From Paracoccaceae bacterium (GTDB lineage: Bacteria > Pseudomonadota > Alphaproteobacteria > Rhodobacterales > Rhodobacteraceae), in contig JAAXIY010000022.1 in NCBI GenBank assembly GCA_012270125.1, positions 2,585-41,627 of the forward strand: 39,043 nt of DNA, read 5' to 3'. The position numbers and the translations under genes were made by a program. Within the stretch, counting starts at the first letter, position 1, and every line of letters begins with the position of its first letter. This document shows, piece by piece, positions 10,430 to 14,306 of the stretch. The notes beneath the pieces are model-generated. The model saw only the letters and a program-made list of their open reading frames with translations, made no database searches and was not told the origin of the DNA.

Positions 10430-10449
10430 AAAGTTGATTGTATTTTTTA

Positions 10450-10866
10450 ATGAAACTTGAATTTCACCATATTAACTTTGTATCAAATGATGTCAGTAAA
10501 ATGCACGATTTTTATACCAAGGTTTTGCGGCTAGAAAATATACCAATAGAAAACTTTCCACGACCCAAGGAAACAGAAAGTACTGGTTACAGTGGTGAAA
10601 TACAATTTGCCACAGACGGTTCTATGCAAATGCATTTGGCAGAAAAAAATTTAGACGTTGCCGCTAAGCATAAAATGCAAATAAATCCAGTTGAGAAAGG
10701 CCACATTGCTTTCAGAACTGATAATCTGGATGAATTTTTAAAAATTCTTAAAGAACACGGTATTCCGTTTTCTGACTATGGAACAGCCTTTGCCAAAGAA
10801 TGGCATCAAGTTTTTTTTCATGATCCTGAAGGAAATGTAGTGGAAGTTCACCAAAAGGTTGATTGA
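10450..10866 (+). CDS. Glyoxalase/VOC superfamily protein
   Basis: A small vicinal-oxygen-chelate protein of 138 aa from the ATG at 10450; an upstream TTG at 10438 gives four extra residues and is less likely. The N-terminal strand MKLEFHHINFVSNDVSKMHDFYTKVL carries the first metal histidine. GHIAFRTDNLDEFLKIL begins the second half, and FFHDPEGNVVEVHQ provides the terminal glutamate and His. The fold serves glyoxalases, extradiol dioxygenases and antibiotic-resistance proteins, so the reaction cannot be assigned. It is the last gene of the plus-strand unit and is convergent with the flavoprotein gene six bases away. Confidence 0.82.
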   Translation: MKLEFHHINFVSNDVSKMHDFYTKVLRLENIPIENFPRPKETESTGYSGEIQFATDGSMQMHLAEKNLDVAAKHKMQINPVEKGHIAFRTDNLDEFLKILKEHGIPFSDYGTAFAKEWHQVFFHDPEGNVVEVHQKVD

Positions 10867-10872
10867 AACTAT

Positions 10873-11430
10873 CTAAGGTGCAAGCCAGGTTCCAGACCAA
10901 TTATCTTTTTTAGCAAACAGGGCTCGAGTGTGGCGAACGCCCAAGTGAACTAAATCCATTTCGTCTATTTTCAAAAAAATAACACAAAATCTATCAAAAT
11001 TGGCTGGTTTTTCATAAATAAATGGGGCTGATATAGGTGTCCCAGGGATTGGCTCTGTTCCATAAGAAATTCTGGATCCTTTTGGAACTTTATTCCATTT
11101 TTCTTTAACTGTTTCCCCAGTTTCTATTTCTGAAATTGCTTTTATCCGAATTTGTAACTTGAGTTTTGGAAACCAGATATGAATGCCAACATTTGGATTT
11201 GATTTTAGCTCTTTAACTTTTGCACTTTTAAGATCTGTGTGCACTTCAAGAGATGCAGATTTTTGGTCCGCTTGTCTCAAAACCACCGTTCTTAATTCGG
11301 GCATTCCTTGTAGTCCAATGGTTCCAAAAGTAGGATGGCGCGCTGGCGACTTATGATCAACGGTTCCTCGAAGAATTAAGGTCCAAGCATAATCGTGCAT
11401 GACTGTAAGATCGTTAAATTCATCTACCAT
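10873..11430 (-). CDS. Pyridoxamine 5'-phosphate oxidase-like FMN-binding protein
   Basis: A 185-aa split-barrel flavin-binding protein. The N-terminal half has ARHPTFGTIGLQGMPELRTVVLR, followed by KVKELKSNPNVGIHIWFPKLKLQIRIKG-like strands, the pattern of the PNPOx-related family. It then has EKWNKVPKGSRISYG. True PdxH is longer and has a conserved C-terminal RL.P motif that I do not see, so this is a PNPOx-like protein of unknown substrate rather than PdxH. It lies seven bases downstream of the ABC1-kinase gene on the same strand and is probably co-transcribed with it. Confidence 0.82.
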   Translation of the reverse strand: MVDEFNDLTVMHDYAWTLILRGTVDHKSPARHPTFGTIGLQGMPELRTVVLRQADQKSASLEVHTDLKSAKVKELKSNPNVGIHIWFPKLKLQIRIKAISEIETGETVKEKWNKVPKGSRISYGTEPIPGTPISAPFIYEKPANFDRFCVIFLKIDEMDLVHLGVRHTRALFAKKDNWSGTWLAP

Positions 11431-11437
11431 TGCGATT

Positions 11438-12781
11438 TCACTTATTTTGAATTGTTAAGCTATATTTTTCTAAGATTTTCAGTATTGGGACTTTTGCTTC
11501 TATTGATTTGAAAAATAAAAGAAACCCTAAAATTTTGCGTTGTATAAAAACGAAATCAGCACTGAGAAGAGTCTGGGGAATGATTTTTTGAAATTCTTTA
11601 AGCTGTTCTAATTCTATGAGTTCAAATATTTTAGAACTTGCAAAATCAAAATTATCATTTCTTGCCAATTCATCGATTGCGGTATCGATCAACTGATTAA
11701 TTAAGTTGTTTGTCGCCATATCCATTTCATCTGGCAGAAATCCTTTTTGAAAGAGAAAGTTTTTTATTTTTTTCCTATCTAAGGTCAATCCAACATCCAG
11801 CAAATCTGCATACAAGTTTTTTGTTTCGGAAGTTACATTTGTACATGAGCCGAAATCTAGCAATACAATTTCAAAGCCTTCCGATTTGAGCAAAAAATTT
11901 GCAAGGTTTGGATCTGTTTGAACAAATTGAAAAATAAAAATTTCATCTAATAATAGCTGAATTAAAACTTCAACTAATCTATTTCGGTCCGACTTTGATA
12001 AAGAATTTTCAAAAGAAAACTCCGAACCCTCTTCATATGACATTGATAAGATTTGATCTGTAGAATATTCGCTAACGACTGTTGGAACCTTTAAATGTTC
12101 ATAGTCCTTGAAAAAATTACTATATTTTTTAATGTTCTCTGCCTCTACGGTGTATTCACTCTCCGCAAGTAACTGTTCTTCACAGATTTCAAAATAATAG
12201 TCCGCATTGAAGCCTTTAGGCAAAAGGCTTGATCTATTAAGCAAAAACCGCAGAGTTCGCATGTCATTTTTAATTGTCTCGCGAATATTTGGAAATTGGA
12301 TCTTAATTGCCAACTCTGGCCCGTTTTTTAATTTAGCTCTGTGAACTTGACCTATAGATGCTGCGGCAAAAGGGTGTACCTGAAAACTTTCAAAATTTTT
12401 CAACCAGCCCTTACCCCAATTTTTATCTAGGATTTTTTTGATTTGATTTGGTGGCATTGAGTAACCGGAGGATCTTAATTGTCCCACAATTTTTGAAATT
12501 TCAGGAGTAAAAATTATTTGACTATCTATGGAAACGAGTTGTCCAAACTTCATAGCGGCGCCTCGCAGTTGTTTTAGAGTTTCCACAGTCGAAAAAATGT
12601 TTTTTTTAGATAGGAGCGATTTATTAAAATCCGCAGTTTTGCCTCTAAATATATCTGAAATCATATCTCCAGATGTTTGAAGCCCAATACGAACCAACAA
12701 GTTCGTAGTTTTTAGATTTCTTTCAAACAAAGAACTAGGCATTCGCTTTGGAATAGTTGATTTTTGGGTACTGCTATCCAT
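11438..12781 (-). CDS. ABC1/UbiB (ADCK-like) atypical kinase
   Basis: A 447-aa protein-kinase-like protein of the ABC1/UbiB/COQ8 family from the ATG at 12781; a TTG at 12799 would add six residues. Family-defining features are visible in order: the KxGQ motif in AMKFGQLVS near residue 85, the alanine-rich loop and ion-pair lysine region FAAASIGQVHRAKLKNGPELAIKIQ, the catalytic loop QTDPNLANFLL, and the metal-binding LDFGSC. Such proteins support ubiquinone biosynthesis as ATPases or kinases. The presence of this copy beside a PNPOx-like gene, outside any ubi cluster, suggests a paralogue rather than the main UbiB, but that is inference. Confidence 0.88.
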   Translation of the reverse strand: MDSSTQKSTIPKRMPSSLFERNLKTTNLLVRIGLQTSGDMISDIFRGKTADFNKSLLSKKNIFSTVETLKQLRGAAMKFGQLVSIDSQIIFTPEISKIVGQLRSSGYSMPPNQIKKILDKNWGKGWLKNFESFQVHPFAAASIGQVHRAKLKNGPELAIKIQFPNIRETIKNDMRTLRFLLNRSSLLPKGFNADYYFEICEEQLLAESEYTVEAENIKKYSNFFKDYEHLKVPTVVSEYSTDQILSMSYEEGSEFSFENSLSKSDRNRLVEVLIQLLLDEIFIFQFVQTDPNLANFLLKSEGFEIVLLDFGSCTNVTSETKNLYADLLDVGLTLDRKKIKNFLFQKGFLPDEMDMATNNLINQLIDTAIDELARNDNFDFASSKIFELIELEQLKEFQKIIPQTLLSADFVFIQRKILGFLLFFKSIEAKVPILKILEKYSLTIQNK

Positions 12782-12881
12782 AGTTCGTTTTGTTGCCAAT
12801 AATACAATGATGACGCGATTTGCAGTTTAAATCTAGGTCGGAACGTAACGAACTCAAATTTTTGAAACAAGTCATCAAAAA

Positions 12882-12910
12882 ACAAAAAAACCTTCCTCAT
12901 TGGAAGGCTT
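12882..12910 (-). terminator. Intrinsic terminator of the small RNA
   Basis: The minus strand reads a CCTTCC stem (12907-12902), a five-base loop, GGAAGG (12896-12891), then seven T residues. It points away from any annotated protein gene, so it must end a minus-strand transcript that begins upstream of 12910, which supports the small RNA. Confidence 0.85.
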
Positions 12911-12980
12911 TCTTGCACAGATTGGGGGGAGGATCCTATCTGTATGTTTGGTTTGCGAAGGGAGGATCGAAAACCTTAAA
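12882..12980 (-). ncRNA. CCTCCC tandem-hairpin small RNA (cuckoo-like), 5' end approximate
   Basis: On the minus strand, two consecutive hairpins display the same anti-Shine-Dalgarno loop. The first has stem GGTTT-t-CGA / TCG-c-AAACC (12975-12950) and the 8-nt loop TCCTCCCT. The second has the perfect stem ACAGAT/ATCTGT (12943-12917) and a loop containing GATCCTCCCCCC. They are followed at once by an intrinsic terminator at 12910-12882. This is the architecture of the alphaproteobacterial cuckoo-type sRNAs, such as the CcsR RNAs of Rhodobacter, which occur in tandem with CCUCC-rich loops. In those, a DUF1127 gene often precedes the RNAs; I see none here. The upstream part of the transcript and its promoter (somewhere in 12980-13060) are not defined. 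Confidence 0.7.
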
Positions 12981-13295
12981 AAACACTTAGAGCACGCTGC
13001 ACTGCAGAACCACTATAACTTTGGCATAGTCGTTATGCATACACTGCATACCTGCTGTTTATCCCATGTTTTATTGACTTTTTTGTGTCTAGATTGAAGG
13101 CAAGGTATGTTTGATTGCTTTACCTTATTTATAAATTTGAGTGAATTTGGATTAAAATTAAGCAGGTTTAATCTTTCTGATTAAAATTTATGCGTTTCAT
13201 TATTCGCAGGCAGTCGTATTATCAAAGTGTTAATAAGGTCTTGTAAGTATTTTTTGTTAAGCTAAATCTTGCAGTACAAAAGGGAGATTTTACTC
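12981..13295. other. Non-coding gap before the TRAP operon
   Basis: No convincing protein gene is seen here on either strand. The left part must contain the promoter of the minus-strand small RNA; the repeated TATGC words around 13023-13054 could belong to it. The right part must contain the dctPQM promoter. It includes an inverted repeat TTTAATC (13167-13173) / GATTAAA (13179-13185) and a second copy of GATTAAAATT at 13150. The AGGGAG at 13281-13286 is the ribosome-binding site of the TRAP binding protein. Confidence 0.5.
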
Positions 13296-14306
13296 ATGAA
13301 AAGTAATTTGGGAAAATTTGTCGCCTTAGCACTTGGCTTGGGTCTGGCAACTGAAACATTCGCAGAAGAGTGGAATGTATCAACTTGGGGAAAGCGCCGC
13401 GCTTTCACTGAGCATATCGAAAAGTTAGCTGAGCTGGTATCAGCTAAGACAAATGGCGAGTTTACAATGAATGTAAGCTATGGTGGTTTGTCGAAAAACC
13501 GGGAAAATTTGGATGGTATTTCCATTGGTGCTTTTGAAATGGCACAATTTTGTGCCGGATATCACCGTGATAAGAACAGAGCAATTACTGTACTTGAACT
13601 ACCTTTTCTTGGTGTTGAAACTTTAGAACAAGAAGTGGCTGTTAGTCACGCCGTATATGACCATCCTGCCGTGATAGATGAAATGGCTCAATGGAATGCA
13701 AAAATCGTTATGACATCGCCGATGCCTCAGTATAACCTTGTTGGTACAGGCGAGCCCAGAGACACGTTAGCGGATTTCGATGGGATGCGTGTTCGTGCAA
13801 CAGGTGGTTTGGGTGCAGCCTTTAAAGCCGTGGGCGGTGTTCCGACATCTGTTACAGCAACAGAGGCTTACCAAGCTATGGAAAGTGGTGTTGTTGATAC
13901 AGTTGCATTTGCCCAGCATGCGCACTTGTCTTTTGGCACAATTAACCAAGCCGATTGGTGGACAGCCAACCTAAACCCAGGAACTGTAAACTGTCCAGTC
14001 GTTGTGAACATAGACGCATATGAAGGACTATCTGCTGCACACAAAGAAGCATTTGATAGCTCAATCGATGAGGCTATAGCGCATTATTTGGATAACTATG
14101 GCGAATTACTCCAAAAGTGGGATAGTATTCTTGTTGAAAAGAATGTGAAAAAAGTCATGATTGATCCTGCAGTTATTGAAGATTTTAAAGCTGCAGCAGC
14201 TGTCCCAGCTAGAGAAGCATGGATAGCTGATATGTCTGCTCAGGGTCTACCTGCACAAGACTTGTATGACTTGGTTCAAACAACATTAGCGGCTGCTAAG
14301 AAGTAA
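13296..14306 (+). CDS. dctP: TRAP transporter solute-binding protein (DctP family)
   Basis: A 336-aa periplasmic binding protein. The ATG at 13296 is chosen because AGGGAG lies ten bases upstream and it gives a clean signal peptide, MKSNLGKFVALALGLGLATETFA, with likely cleavage before EEWNV; the TTG at 13269 would add nine charged residues ahead of it. The mature protein shows the DctP pattern, including DFDGMRVRATGGLGAAFKAVGGVPTSVTATEAYQAMESGVVD, where the conserved Arg in RVRA usually holds the substrate carboxylate. An organic acid is therefore expected; its identity is not evident. It is the first gene of a dctPQM operon, and a strong hairpin follows the stop codon. Confidence 0.93.
   Translation: MKSNLGKFVALALGLGLATETFAEEWNVSTWGKRRAFTEHIEKLAELVSAKTNGEFTMNVSYGGLSKNRENLDGISIGAFEMAQFCAGYHRDKNRAITVLELPFLGVETLEQEVAVSHAVYDHPAVIDEMAQWNAKIVMTSPMPQYNLVGTGEPRDTLADFDGMRVRATGGLGAAFKAVGGVPTSVTATEAYQAMESGVVDTVAFAQHAHLSFGTINQADWWTANLNPGTVNCPVVVNIDAYEGLSAAHKEAFDSSIDEAIAHYLDNYGELLQKWDSILVEKNVKKVMIDPAVIEDFKAAAAVPAREAWIADMSAQGLPAQDLYDLVQTTLAAAKK

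Follow-up and report, generated by a model that had tools for sequence, protein, structure and literature searches.

A probable stand-alone, diverged anti-Shine-Dalgarno RNA of the cuckoo/ar14 kind in a small-genome lineage of Rhodobacteraceae

Introduction

Small RNAs of the cuckoo and ar14 kind carry anti-Shine-Dalgarno motifs in the loops of adjacent hairpins. The loop motif CCUCCUCCC is reported for SmelA075 and SmelA099 and is carried by every cuckoo hairpin, and cuckoo arrays of two, three, and four hairpins are named (PMC3927594). CcsR-like RNAs often accompany short DUF1127 proteins (PMC10253847), and NfeR1 uses three anti-Shine-Dalgarno motifs to silence transporter binding protein mRNAs and ntrB (PMC10746234, PMC8844928).

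RNAs and DUF1127 genes of this sort have also been placed under a LysR-type regulator, VtlR or LsrB. LsrB of S. meliloti is reported to activate NfeR1 at a TGCA-N6-GCAT site located at -72 to -57 (PMC10746234). Brucella VtlR, for which the box CAATGCAGCCATGCA is given, switches on three DUF1127 genes together with an sRNA (PMC12595884), and Agrobacterium VtlR is described as activating sRNAs and the gene of a small hypothetical protein (PMC7486931). A 2025 paper states that trxB is the neighbor of lsrB, and calls LsrB unique to Rhizobiales (PMC11975290).

The RNA described below lies in a genome of 2.16 Mb in 85 contigs (G000), and 15 other genomes of the same genus are in the collection. The window is the whole stretch of DNA that was analyzed, 39,043 nucleotides (39 kb) in length.

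Position and Predicted Structure of the RNA

The RNA element occupies positions 12975–12882 of the minus strand and is composed of two hairpins with CCUCCC loops, followed by a strong terminator. It sits in a gap between a UbiB-like kinase gene on one side and a divergent dctP TRAP operon on the other. The features of the locus are as follows.

11438–12799, minus strand: UbiB/ABC1-like kinase gene, the downstream neighbor of the RNA
12882–12916, minus strand: Rho-independent terminator, a 15-pair stem and then a T-run
12917–12943, minus strand: hairpin 2, loop AGGAUCCUCCCCCCA, CCTCCC at 12932–12927
12950–12975, minus strand: hairpin 1, loop UCCUCCCU, CCTCCC at 12965–12960
13008–13033, minus strand: conserved block CGA.TATG..AAGTTAT.GTGGTT, a probable core promoter or activator contact region
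13034–13050, minus strand: dyad TATGC-N7-GCATA, TATGCAGTGTATGCATA, a probable operator, with TGCA-N6-GCAT at 13048–13035
13305–14306, plus strand: dctP (TRAP solute-binding protein), the divergent neighbor and a possible target, with AAAAGGGAGA upstream, complementary to part of loop 1

The transcript would be approximately 97–125 nt long, read from the minus strand. The promoter region fits in two ways, either with TATAGT as the -10 element and a start near 13005, or with a start near hairpin 1. The 108-nt strand that contains the RNA folds at -35.8 kcal/mol, compared with a shuffled mean of -18.35 (z = -5.74; 0 of 200 shuffles equal it). The window has nine CCTCCC sites, counting both strands, and the best flanking stems are those of the two sites in the RNA, with scores of 17 and 18 in an in-house scoring devised by the analyst; the next stem scores 12, and the other six score 4–9. 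Both loops contain CCUCCC only, the full cuckoo motif CCUCCUCCC being absent, and the loop of the terminator lacks a motif of this kind. At the curated (gathering) cut-offs, Rfam gives no match in the 39-kb window, and a search of plasmids gave no match.

The initial annotation had described two adjacent hairpins with a common CCTCCC loop and a terminator, no DUF1127 gene ahead of them, and a TRAP operon as the neighbor. The hairpins and terminator are confirmed by the fold, the stem ranking, and the conservation described below, and both statements about the surroundings are correct: the TRAP operon is divergent with dctP first, and the other neighbor is the kinase gene.

Conservation in the Genus and a Sister RNA

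A DNA search finds a window-type RNA at the same place in 6 of the 15 other genomes of the genus (G001, G002, G004, G005, G008, and G014). The kinase gene lies downstream of the RNA and the start of dctP upstream in five of these six (G001, G002, G004, G005, and G008). In G014, the contig starts 200 bp ahead of the RNA, which is kept without the kinase gene beside it; by reading, the gene next to it is a homologue of window positions 10873–11430. The named Rhodobacteraceae records AG-359-N23, AH-326-L19, and AG-390-A18, which we take to be marine single-cell genomes, carry the window-type RNA on contigs corresponding to those of G001, G008, and G014. A 23-base match to the RNA in genome G099 was rejected, because an open frame on the other strand covers it.

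A covariance model of all seven copies recovers those seven at E < 1e-16, as expected from its construction. In the seven realigned copies, 96.3% of the pair cells are standard, and 7 of 27 pairs have changed on both sides, compared with a shuffled mean of 2.0 (0 of 500 shuffles reach seven); structures slid along the same alignment have 0–4 such pairs. The compensatory changes in relatives that the initial annotation had named as a check are therefore present. They fall on 4 of 8 pairs in hairpin 1, 1 of 7 in hairpin 2, and 2 of 12 in the terminator, so that hairpin 1 holds most of the covariation; hairpin 2 is nearly invariant over the seven genomes, and all cells of the 12 modeled terminator pairs are standard in 7/7. 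In G004, CCTCCC is gone from hairpin 1 and kept in hairpin 2.

All 16 genomes of the genus were also scanned for two closely spaced TCCTCC, and matches, mostly isolated, occur in each. A second recurrent RNA, referred to here as the sister RNA, emerges in six further genomes (G003, G007, G009, G011, G012, and G013), and a DNA search with it recovers the same six. The sister RNA is likewise built of two CCUCC hairpins and a terminator, with CCUCCC in the first hairpin and often CCUCCUCCC in the second; the full motif is present in hairpin 2 of some copies, for example, that of G007. Over its six sequences, 3 of 36 predicted pairs have changed on both sides, and the covariation term is slightly unfavorable (+0.75). 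By reading, it lies between SDR-like and thiamine-diphosphate-enzyme-like genes in the three loci listed (G007, G011, and G003). One RNA type or the other occurs in 13 of the 16 genomes, and the two were never found together. Neither type was found in G006, G010, and G015, which are 86, 90, and 59% complete, respectively; a candidate from the TCCTCC scan in G015 was rejected when its locus was read.

Relation to ar14 and Cuckoo RNAs

The consensus of the Rfam family ar14 (RF02344; gathering cut-off of 58.8 bits) consists of two CCUCC hairpins and a terminator hairpin, and the window RNA has the same layout. For the G008 orthologue of the window RNA, the ar14 model gives 36.8 bits (E = 2.2e-5), and for the six sister RNAs, all of which it matches, 23.8–37.3 bits (E = 1.3e-5 to 0.022), every score in the genus lying under the cut-off. 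It does not match the window copy, even at E up to 5; at this locus, one copy of seven is matched (that of G008), and the window copy and the other five are not. In a five-locus test, the G007 locus was unmatched at E = 0.01. The model search envisaged in the initial annotation yields matches below the cut-off for the one orthologue and the six sisters, and none for the window copy itself.

Over 111 relatives, 55 match ar14 at E ≤ 0.05 and 10 exceed the cut-off, and 14 control genomes give no match. Loci above the cut-off include those of Nitratireductor (L126, 59.8 bits) and Aureimonas (L190, 77 bits), and loci below it include a DUF1127-linked array in another genus of Rhodobacteraceae (L034, 54.2 bits) and that of Chelativorans (L149, 38.1 bits). 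Weak matches to other Rfam models (Phe_leader, STnc230, RNAI, and others; E of about 0.1 to 5) were set aside as terminator resemblance or chance. A home-built covariance model, R1, gives 11 matches at E ≤ 0.01 over 295 genomes of the family, the window's own included. In the ten loci of other genera that were read (L038 and L040 (short) lie outside that reading), only L034 is a CCUCC RNA, the rest being terminator-like. A pattern scan of named genomes returned at least 118 stretches; among the matches listed, 17 were picked by organism name, comprising nine multi-hairpin CCUCC RNAs, three from this genus, and five negatives.

Some of these loci have features of their own. In Nitratireductor (L126, L130, L145, L146, L193, and L201), the last CCUCC hairpin, with the loop CCUCCCCCC, is followed by a T-run and resembles a terminator itself, and in L126 an Rfam tRNA gene lies just downstream. 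In three Rhodobacteraceae loci (L251, L259, and L261), the CCUCC arrays are very long, 1 kb holding more than 20 copies of TCCTCC.

Cuckoo RNAs are defined by two to four adjacent hairpins of variable stem, each with CCUCCUCCC, and CcsR RNAs of the CIN1 kind by a place directly downstream of a DUF1127 gene. The window RNA has two such hairpins, a number that the 2015 cuckoo paper reportedly gives as the lower bound for the family; its loops contain only CCUCCC, and no DUF1127 gene precedes it. Because the ar14 scores fall below the cut-off and the loops read CCUCCC and not CCUCCUCCC, the window RNA is not filed here as an ar14 or cuckoo member. Judging from sequence likeness, we take it to be homologous to ar14 by way of the G008 orthologue, below the curated threshold; it is built like an ar14/cuckoo RNA and probably works like one too. 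The initial annotation had proposed a cuckoo/CcsR-like, stand-alone CCUCC RNA in a small-genome lineage of Rhodobacteraceae, and this is favored by the ar14 matches to the orthologue and the sisters and by the DUF1127 linkage of the relatives. Its description of the RNA as reduced to two units holds for the loop motif and not for the number of hairpins, which is also two in the ar14 consensus.

Separation from the DUF1127 Gene

The ar14 loci of other Rhodobacteraceae genera were compared at the best-scoring place in each genome. The set consists of 29 of 30 loci, all of family f1; L265, which belongs to another family and has no CCTCC cluster, was excluded. With a home-made DUF1127 profile from 14 sequences, a same-strand DUF1127 frame is found in the 700 nt preceding the first CCUCC cluster in 28 of the 29. 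The exception is L250 (in G063). At 60 bits, its ar14 RNA exceeds the cut-off; the profile found no DUF1127 frame ahead of it, and both of the conserved boxes described below lie immediately before it, at -86 and -46 from the first CCUCC cluster. L250 is a precedent for a stand-alone ar14 RNA.

In the window genome, one DUF1127 gene was found, on contig 72 (24.7–24.9 bits; cut-off of 23.3), and no CCUCC hairpins occur there. In the genus as a whole, ten DUF1127 genes were found, in 8 of the 16 genomes, two of the ten below the Pfam cut-off; in the 700 nt downstream, nine have no TCCTCC and one has a single one. Genome G006 has three DUF1127 genes (contigs 1, 4, and 14), one below the Pfam cut-off, and no CCUCC RNA of the window or sister type was found in it. 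The stand-alone form suggested by the initial annotation is correct in that no DUF1127 gene adjoins the RNA, but the partner is not lost, as a DUF1127 gene is found elsewhere behind a matching dyad.

The Upstream Dyad and Its Candidate Regulator

The dyad of the window-type RNA, a probable operator judging from its form, retains TGC-N7-GCA in 7/7 genomes and the exact TGCA-N6-GCAT in 6/7, and TGCAAAAATAGCAT lies upstream of all six sister RNAs. TATGCN7GCATA occurs in four places in the window genome: at the RNA, approximately 60 bp ahead of the first start codon of the DUF1127 gene, and at two further places, one within a murC-like gene and one ahead of an efp-like gene. The chance of such a dyad within 100 bp upstream of DUF1127 is approximately 1 in 7,000, given three other sites, one gene, and an assumed even placement. 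Of the ten DUF1127 genes of the genus, four have TGC-N7-GCA intact, and the other six have the half-site GCATAGCGGC. A TGCA-N6-GCAT-type dyad upstream of each half, RNA and DUF1127 gene, suggests a common switch of the LsrB/VtlR type. The efp-like site, at G000:C33:12705–12721 (L290), precedes by approximately 100 bp a gene read as encoding elongation factor P.

Similar sites are widespread at the ar14 loci of other genera. TGCA-N6-GCAT or ATGC-N6-TGCA occurs in the 900 nt preceding the first CCUCC cluster in 27 of the 29 loci, compared with 0.62 sites expected from composition in all 29 together. In 18 loci, the sites form a pair 37–42 bp apart, and with the looser TGC-N7-GCA, 26/29 do. The first box reads roughly [T/C]ATGC-N6-TGCAT[A/G]GC[A/G]GCATTG, the right-hand portion of which closely resembles the VtlR box CAATGCAGCCATGCA in reverse complement. 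With at least 12 of 15 matches, the VtlR box is found at 28/29 of these loci; the same level is reached by 14 of 290 shuffled controls and by 1 of 145 controls with a scrambled probe. In the present genus, it scores 8–10 of 15 at the seven window-type RNA promoters, equal to the chance (shuffle) level, 10–12 of 15 at three of the ten DUF1127 promoters, and 10–11 of 15 at two of the six sister promoters. The ar14 loci of other Rhodobacteraceae (L241–L270) share another conserved box approximately 40 bp after the VtlR-like one, reading roughly ATTGTGCA-N2-TGCAGCA.

A matrix was built from 26 boxes of the other genera, the three of the 29 loci that lack a 37–42 bp TGC-N7-GCA pair being excluded. 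Within the stretch taken for each locus, its best match lies directly upstream of DUF1127 in 10/10 loci of the genus (two of them low-scoring) and upstream of the RNA in 6/6 other window-type loci and 6/6 sister loci. The RNA's own dyad scores 7.4 on its strand and 10.0 on the other, compared with top scores of 11.1, 8.9, and 8.5 in 400 kb of random sequence. The VtlR-box and matrix results together make the DUF1127 side of the shared-dyad claim stronger than the RNA side. In the window, a site at 10681–10656 of the minus strand, inside a glyoxalase-like gene (10438–10866), scores 16.5, above the RNA's dyad, and is probably due to chance.

The window genome has seven LysR genes, one of which, at G000:C16:14637–15584 (L292, L298), is an LsrB orthologue. 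Four other Rhodobacteraceae genomes each encode one protein with 72–75% identity to its product. In four Rhizobiales genomes, a single protein per genome has 41–46% identity to it, and the LysR protein ranking second has 31–32%. The product is the best of the seven for all four Rhizobiales proteins (243–264 bits versus 69–73), and against the trxB-adjacent LsrB proteins of Nitratireductor (two genomes) and Chelativorans, it scores 243–249 bits, with the next at 69–71. A frame with a thioredoxin reductase motif adjoins the orthologous gene in three of the four Rhizobiales genomes; no such frame was seen beside the gene in Aureimonas or in the window genome. LSQSA[VI]SRQ and LFHRHARGL are common to the LsrB-type proteins compared. 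The orthologue is present in the five Rhodobacteraceae genera tested, namely this genus and those of G018, G021, G028, and G033 (loci L301–L308), in contrast with the Rhizobiales-only description in the 2025 paper (PMC11975290).

These observations can be read as the splitting of a DUF1127–cuckoo operon, in which the gene of a putative RNA-binding protein precedes its sRNAs, into two transcription units that are still joined by copies of the same LsrB/VtlR-type operator. In that case, what is conserved in both Rhodobacterales and Rhizobiales would be not an operon but an LsrB regulon comprising a DUF1127 protein and an anti-Shine-Dalgarno RNA. This reading is given about even odds; no report of a split DUF1127–cuckoo operon, or of its LsrB control in Rhodobacteraceae, was found in the open-access literature searched.

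A cuckoo-type anti-Shine-Dalgarno RNA could instead be regulated independently, its dyad being an unrelated operator and no LsrB switch being common with DUF1127. The lack of the VtlR 15-mer from the RNA's dyad, its modest matrix score, and the occurrence of TGCA-N6-GCAT twice in the 39-kb window are consistent with that reading, but the retention of the dyad at all seven loci (the exact form at six) and of TGCAAAAATAGCAT upstream of every sister RNA argues for a maintained operator of the same form. The spacing points the same way: the distance from the start of the dyad is 73 nt to hairpin 1 and 83 nt to CCTCCC in the window copy, and 80–90 nt to CCTCCC in the sisters, as compared with -72 to -57 for the LsrB site of NfeR1. 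Independent regulation is judged rather unlikely.

Possible Targets and Proposed Mechanism

By analogy with NfeR1, the loops of the RNA should pair with GGGAGG-like sites. When the loops alone are paired with the 36 genes of the window, the strongest pairing, at -20.2 kcal/mol, is with AAGGGAGGAUUG of a BtpA-family gene; the gene of an extracellular solute-binding protein ranks third and dctP sixth. When the whole RNA is used instead, dctP takes third place among the 36. The Shine-Dalgarno complementarity of the RNA is unspecific among the window genes. The sequence AAAAGGGAGA upstream of dctP is kept in 6/6 genomes read, which ordinary ribosome binding would explain equally. On the basis of this complementarity, dctP is possibly one candidate target.

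The complementarity of the dctP ribosome-binding site to part of loop 1, together with the conserved place beside dctP in the six genomes readable on that side, would also suit a local cis element, such as a leader, an attenuator, or a processed fragment of the dctP operon or the kinase gene. However, the RNA lies on the strand opposite dctP, has a conserved upstream block of its own, and ends in its own terminator ahead of the kinase gene; G014 retains the RNA with no kinase gene adjoining, and the sister RNA lies between unrelated genes, all of which makes a cis element improbable. That C-rich loops and a terminator met by chance in an intergenic region, with no functional RNA, would suit the missing Rfam match of the window copy at curated cut-offs, but is contradicted by the fold, the covariation, and the conservation in seven genomes, and is thus extremely improbable.

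The RNA is real and conserved, and it probably stands alone. We read it as an anti-Shine-Dalgarno RNA of the cuckoo/ar14 type that has diverged and is no longer attached to DUF1127. It may act in trans as a diverged relative of the ar14/cuckoo (NfeR1, CcsR) RNAs, with its CCUCCC loops pairing with purine-rich Shine-Dalgarno sequences (AAGGGAG, GGGAGG) of several mRNAs. Such pairing would block ribosome binding and silence these mRNAs, and the terminator hairpin would end the RNA and protect it. We infer the order of events as follows: an ancestral DUF1127–RNA operon would have split in the genus, placing the DUF1127 gene elsewhere and leaving the RNA alone, by dctP in one set of genomes and between SDR-like and thiamine-diphosphate-enzyme-like genes in another. 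One LsrB/VtlR-type LysR regulator would still switch both halves by binding TGCA-N6-GCAT-type dyads. The whole account, combining a diverged ar14/cuckoo-type anti-Shine-Dalgarno RNA, a split operon, and retained LsrB co-regulation, is considered fairly likely.

Comparison with Known Systems

What is new here is a diverged anti-Shine-Dalgarno RNA that Rfam misses in the window genome, in a lineage known here from draft genomes alone. The VtlR-like box, with at most three mismatches at 28 of the 29 loci, points to a candidate regulator of cuckoo-type RNAs beyond Rhizobiales. If both parts are under LsrB control, broad translational silencing would be tied to redox sensing, and it would follow from the split that the DUF1127 protein and the RNA may have to be regulated jointly but not transcribed jointly.

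The window RNA resembles ar14/NfeR1 of S. meliloti in its two CCUCC-loop hairpins and terminator, its free-standing position, and the TGCA-N6-GCAT dyad upstream, and the NfeR1 length of 115 nt is similar (PMC8844928). It differs from ar14/NfeR1 in having CCUCCC loops instead of CCUCCUCCC, a terminator loop without the motif, and no match to the model. The cuckoo RNAs CcsR1–4 of Rhodobacter sphaeroides, encoded with the DUF1127 protein CcaF1 at the CIN1 locus, share with it adjacent hairpins of variable stem and the same kind of anti-Shine-Dalgarno loop; both hosts are Rhodobacteraceae, and a DUF1127 gene is present in the window genome too. In contrast to CcsR1–4, the window RNA is not beside DUF1127 and has two hairpins only. 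CcsR is described as lying behind an RpoHI/RpoHII promoter (PMC10253847), unlike the window RNA. The regulon of VtlR/LsrB in Rhizobiales offers the closest parallel in regulation, with one LysR regulator reported to act over DUF1127 genes, sRNAs, and NfeR1 (PMC12595884, PMC7486931, PMC10746234). The present case differs from that regulon in that the dyad of the RNA is unlike the VtlR 15-mer, and would extend the same arrangement, by inference, to Rhodobacteraceae.
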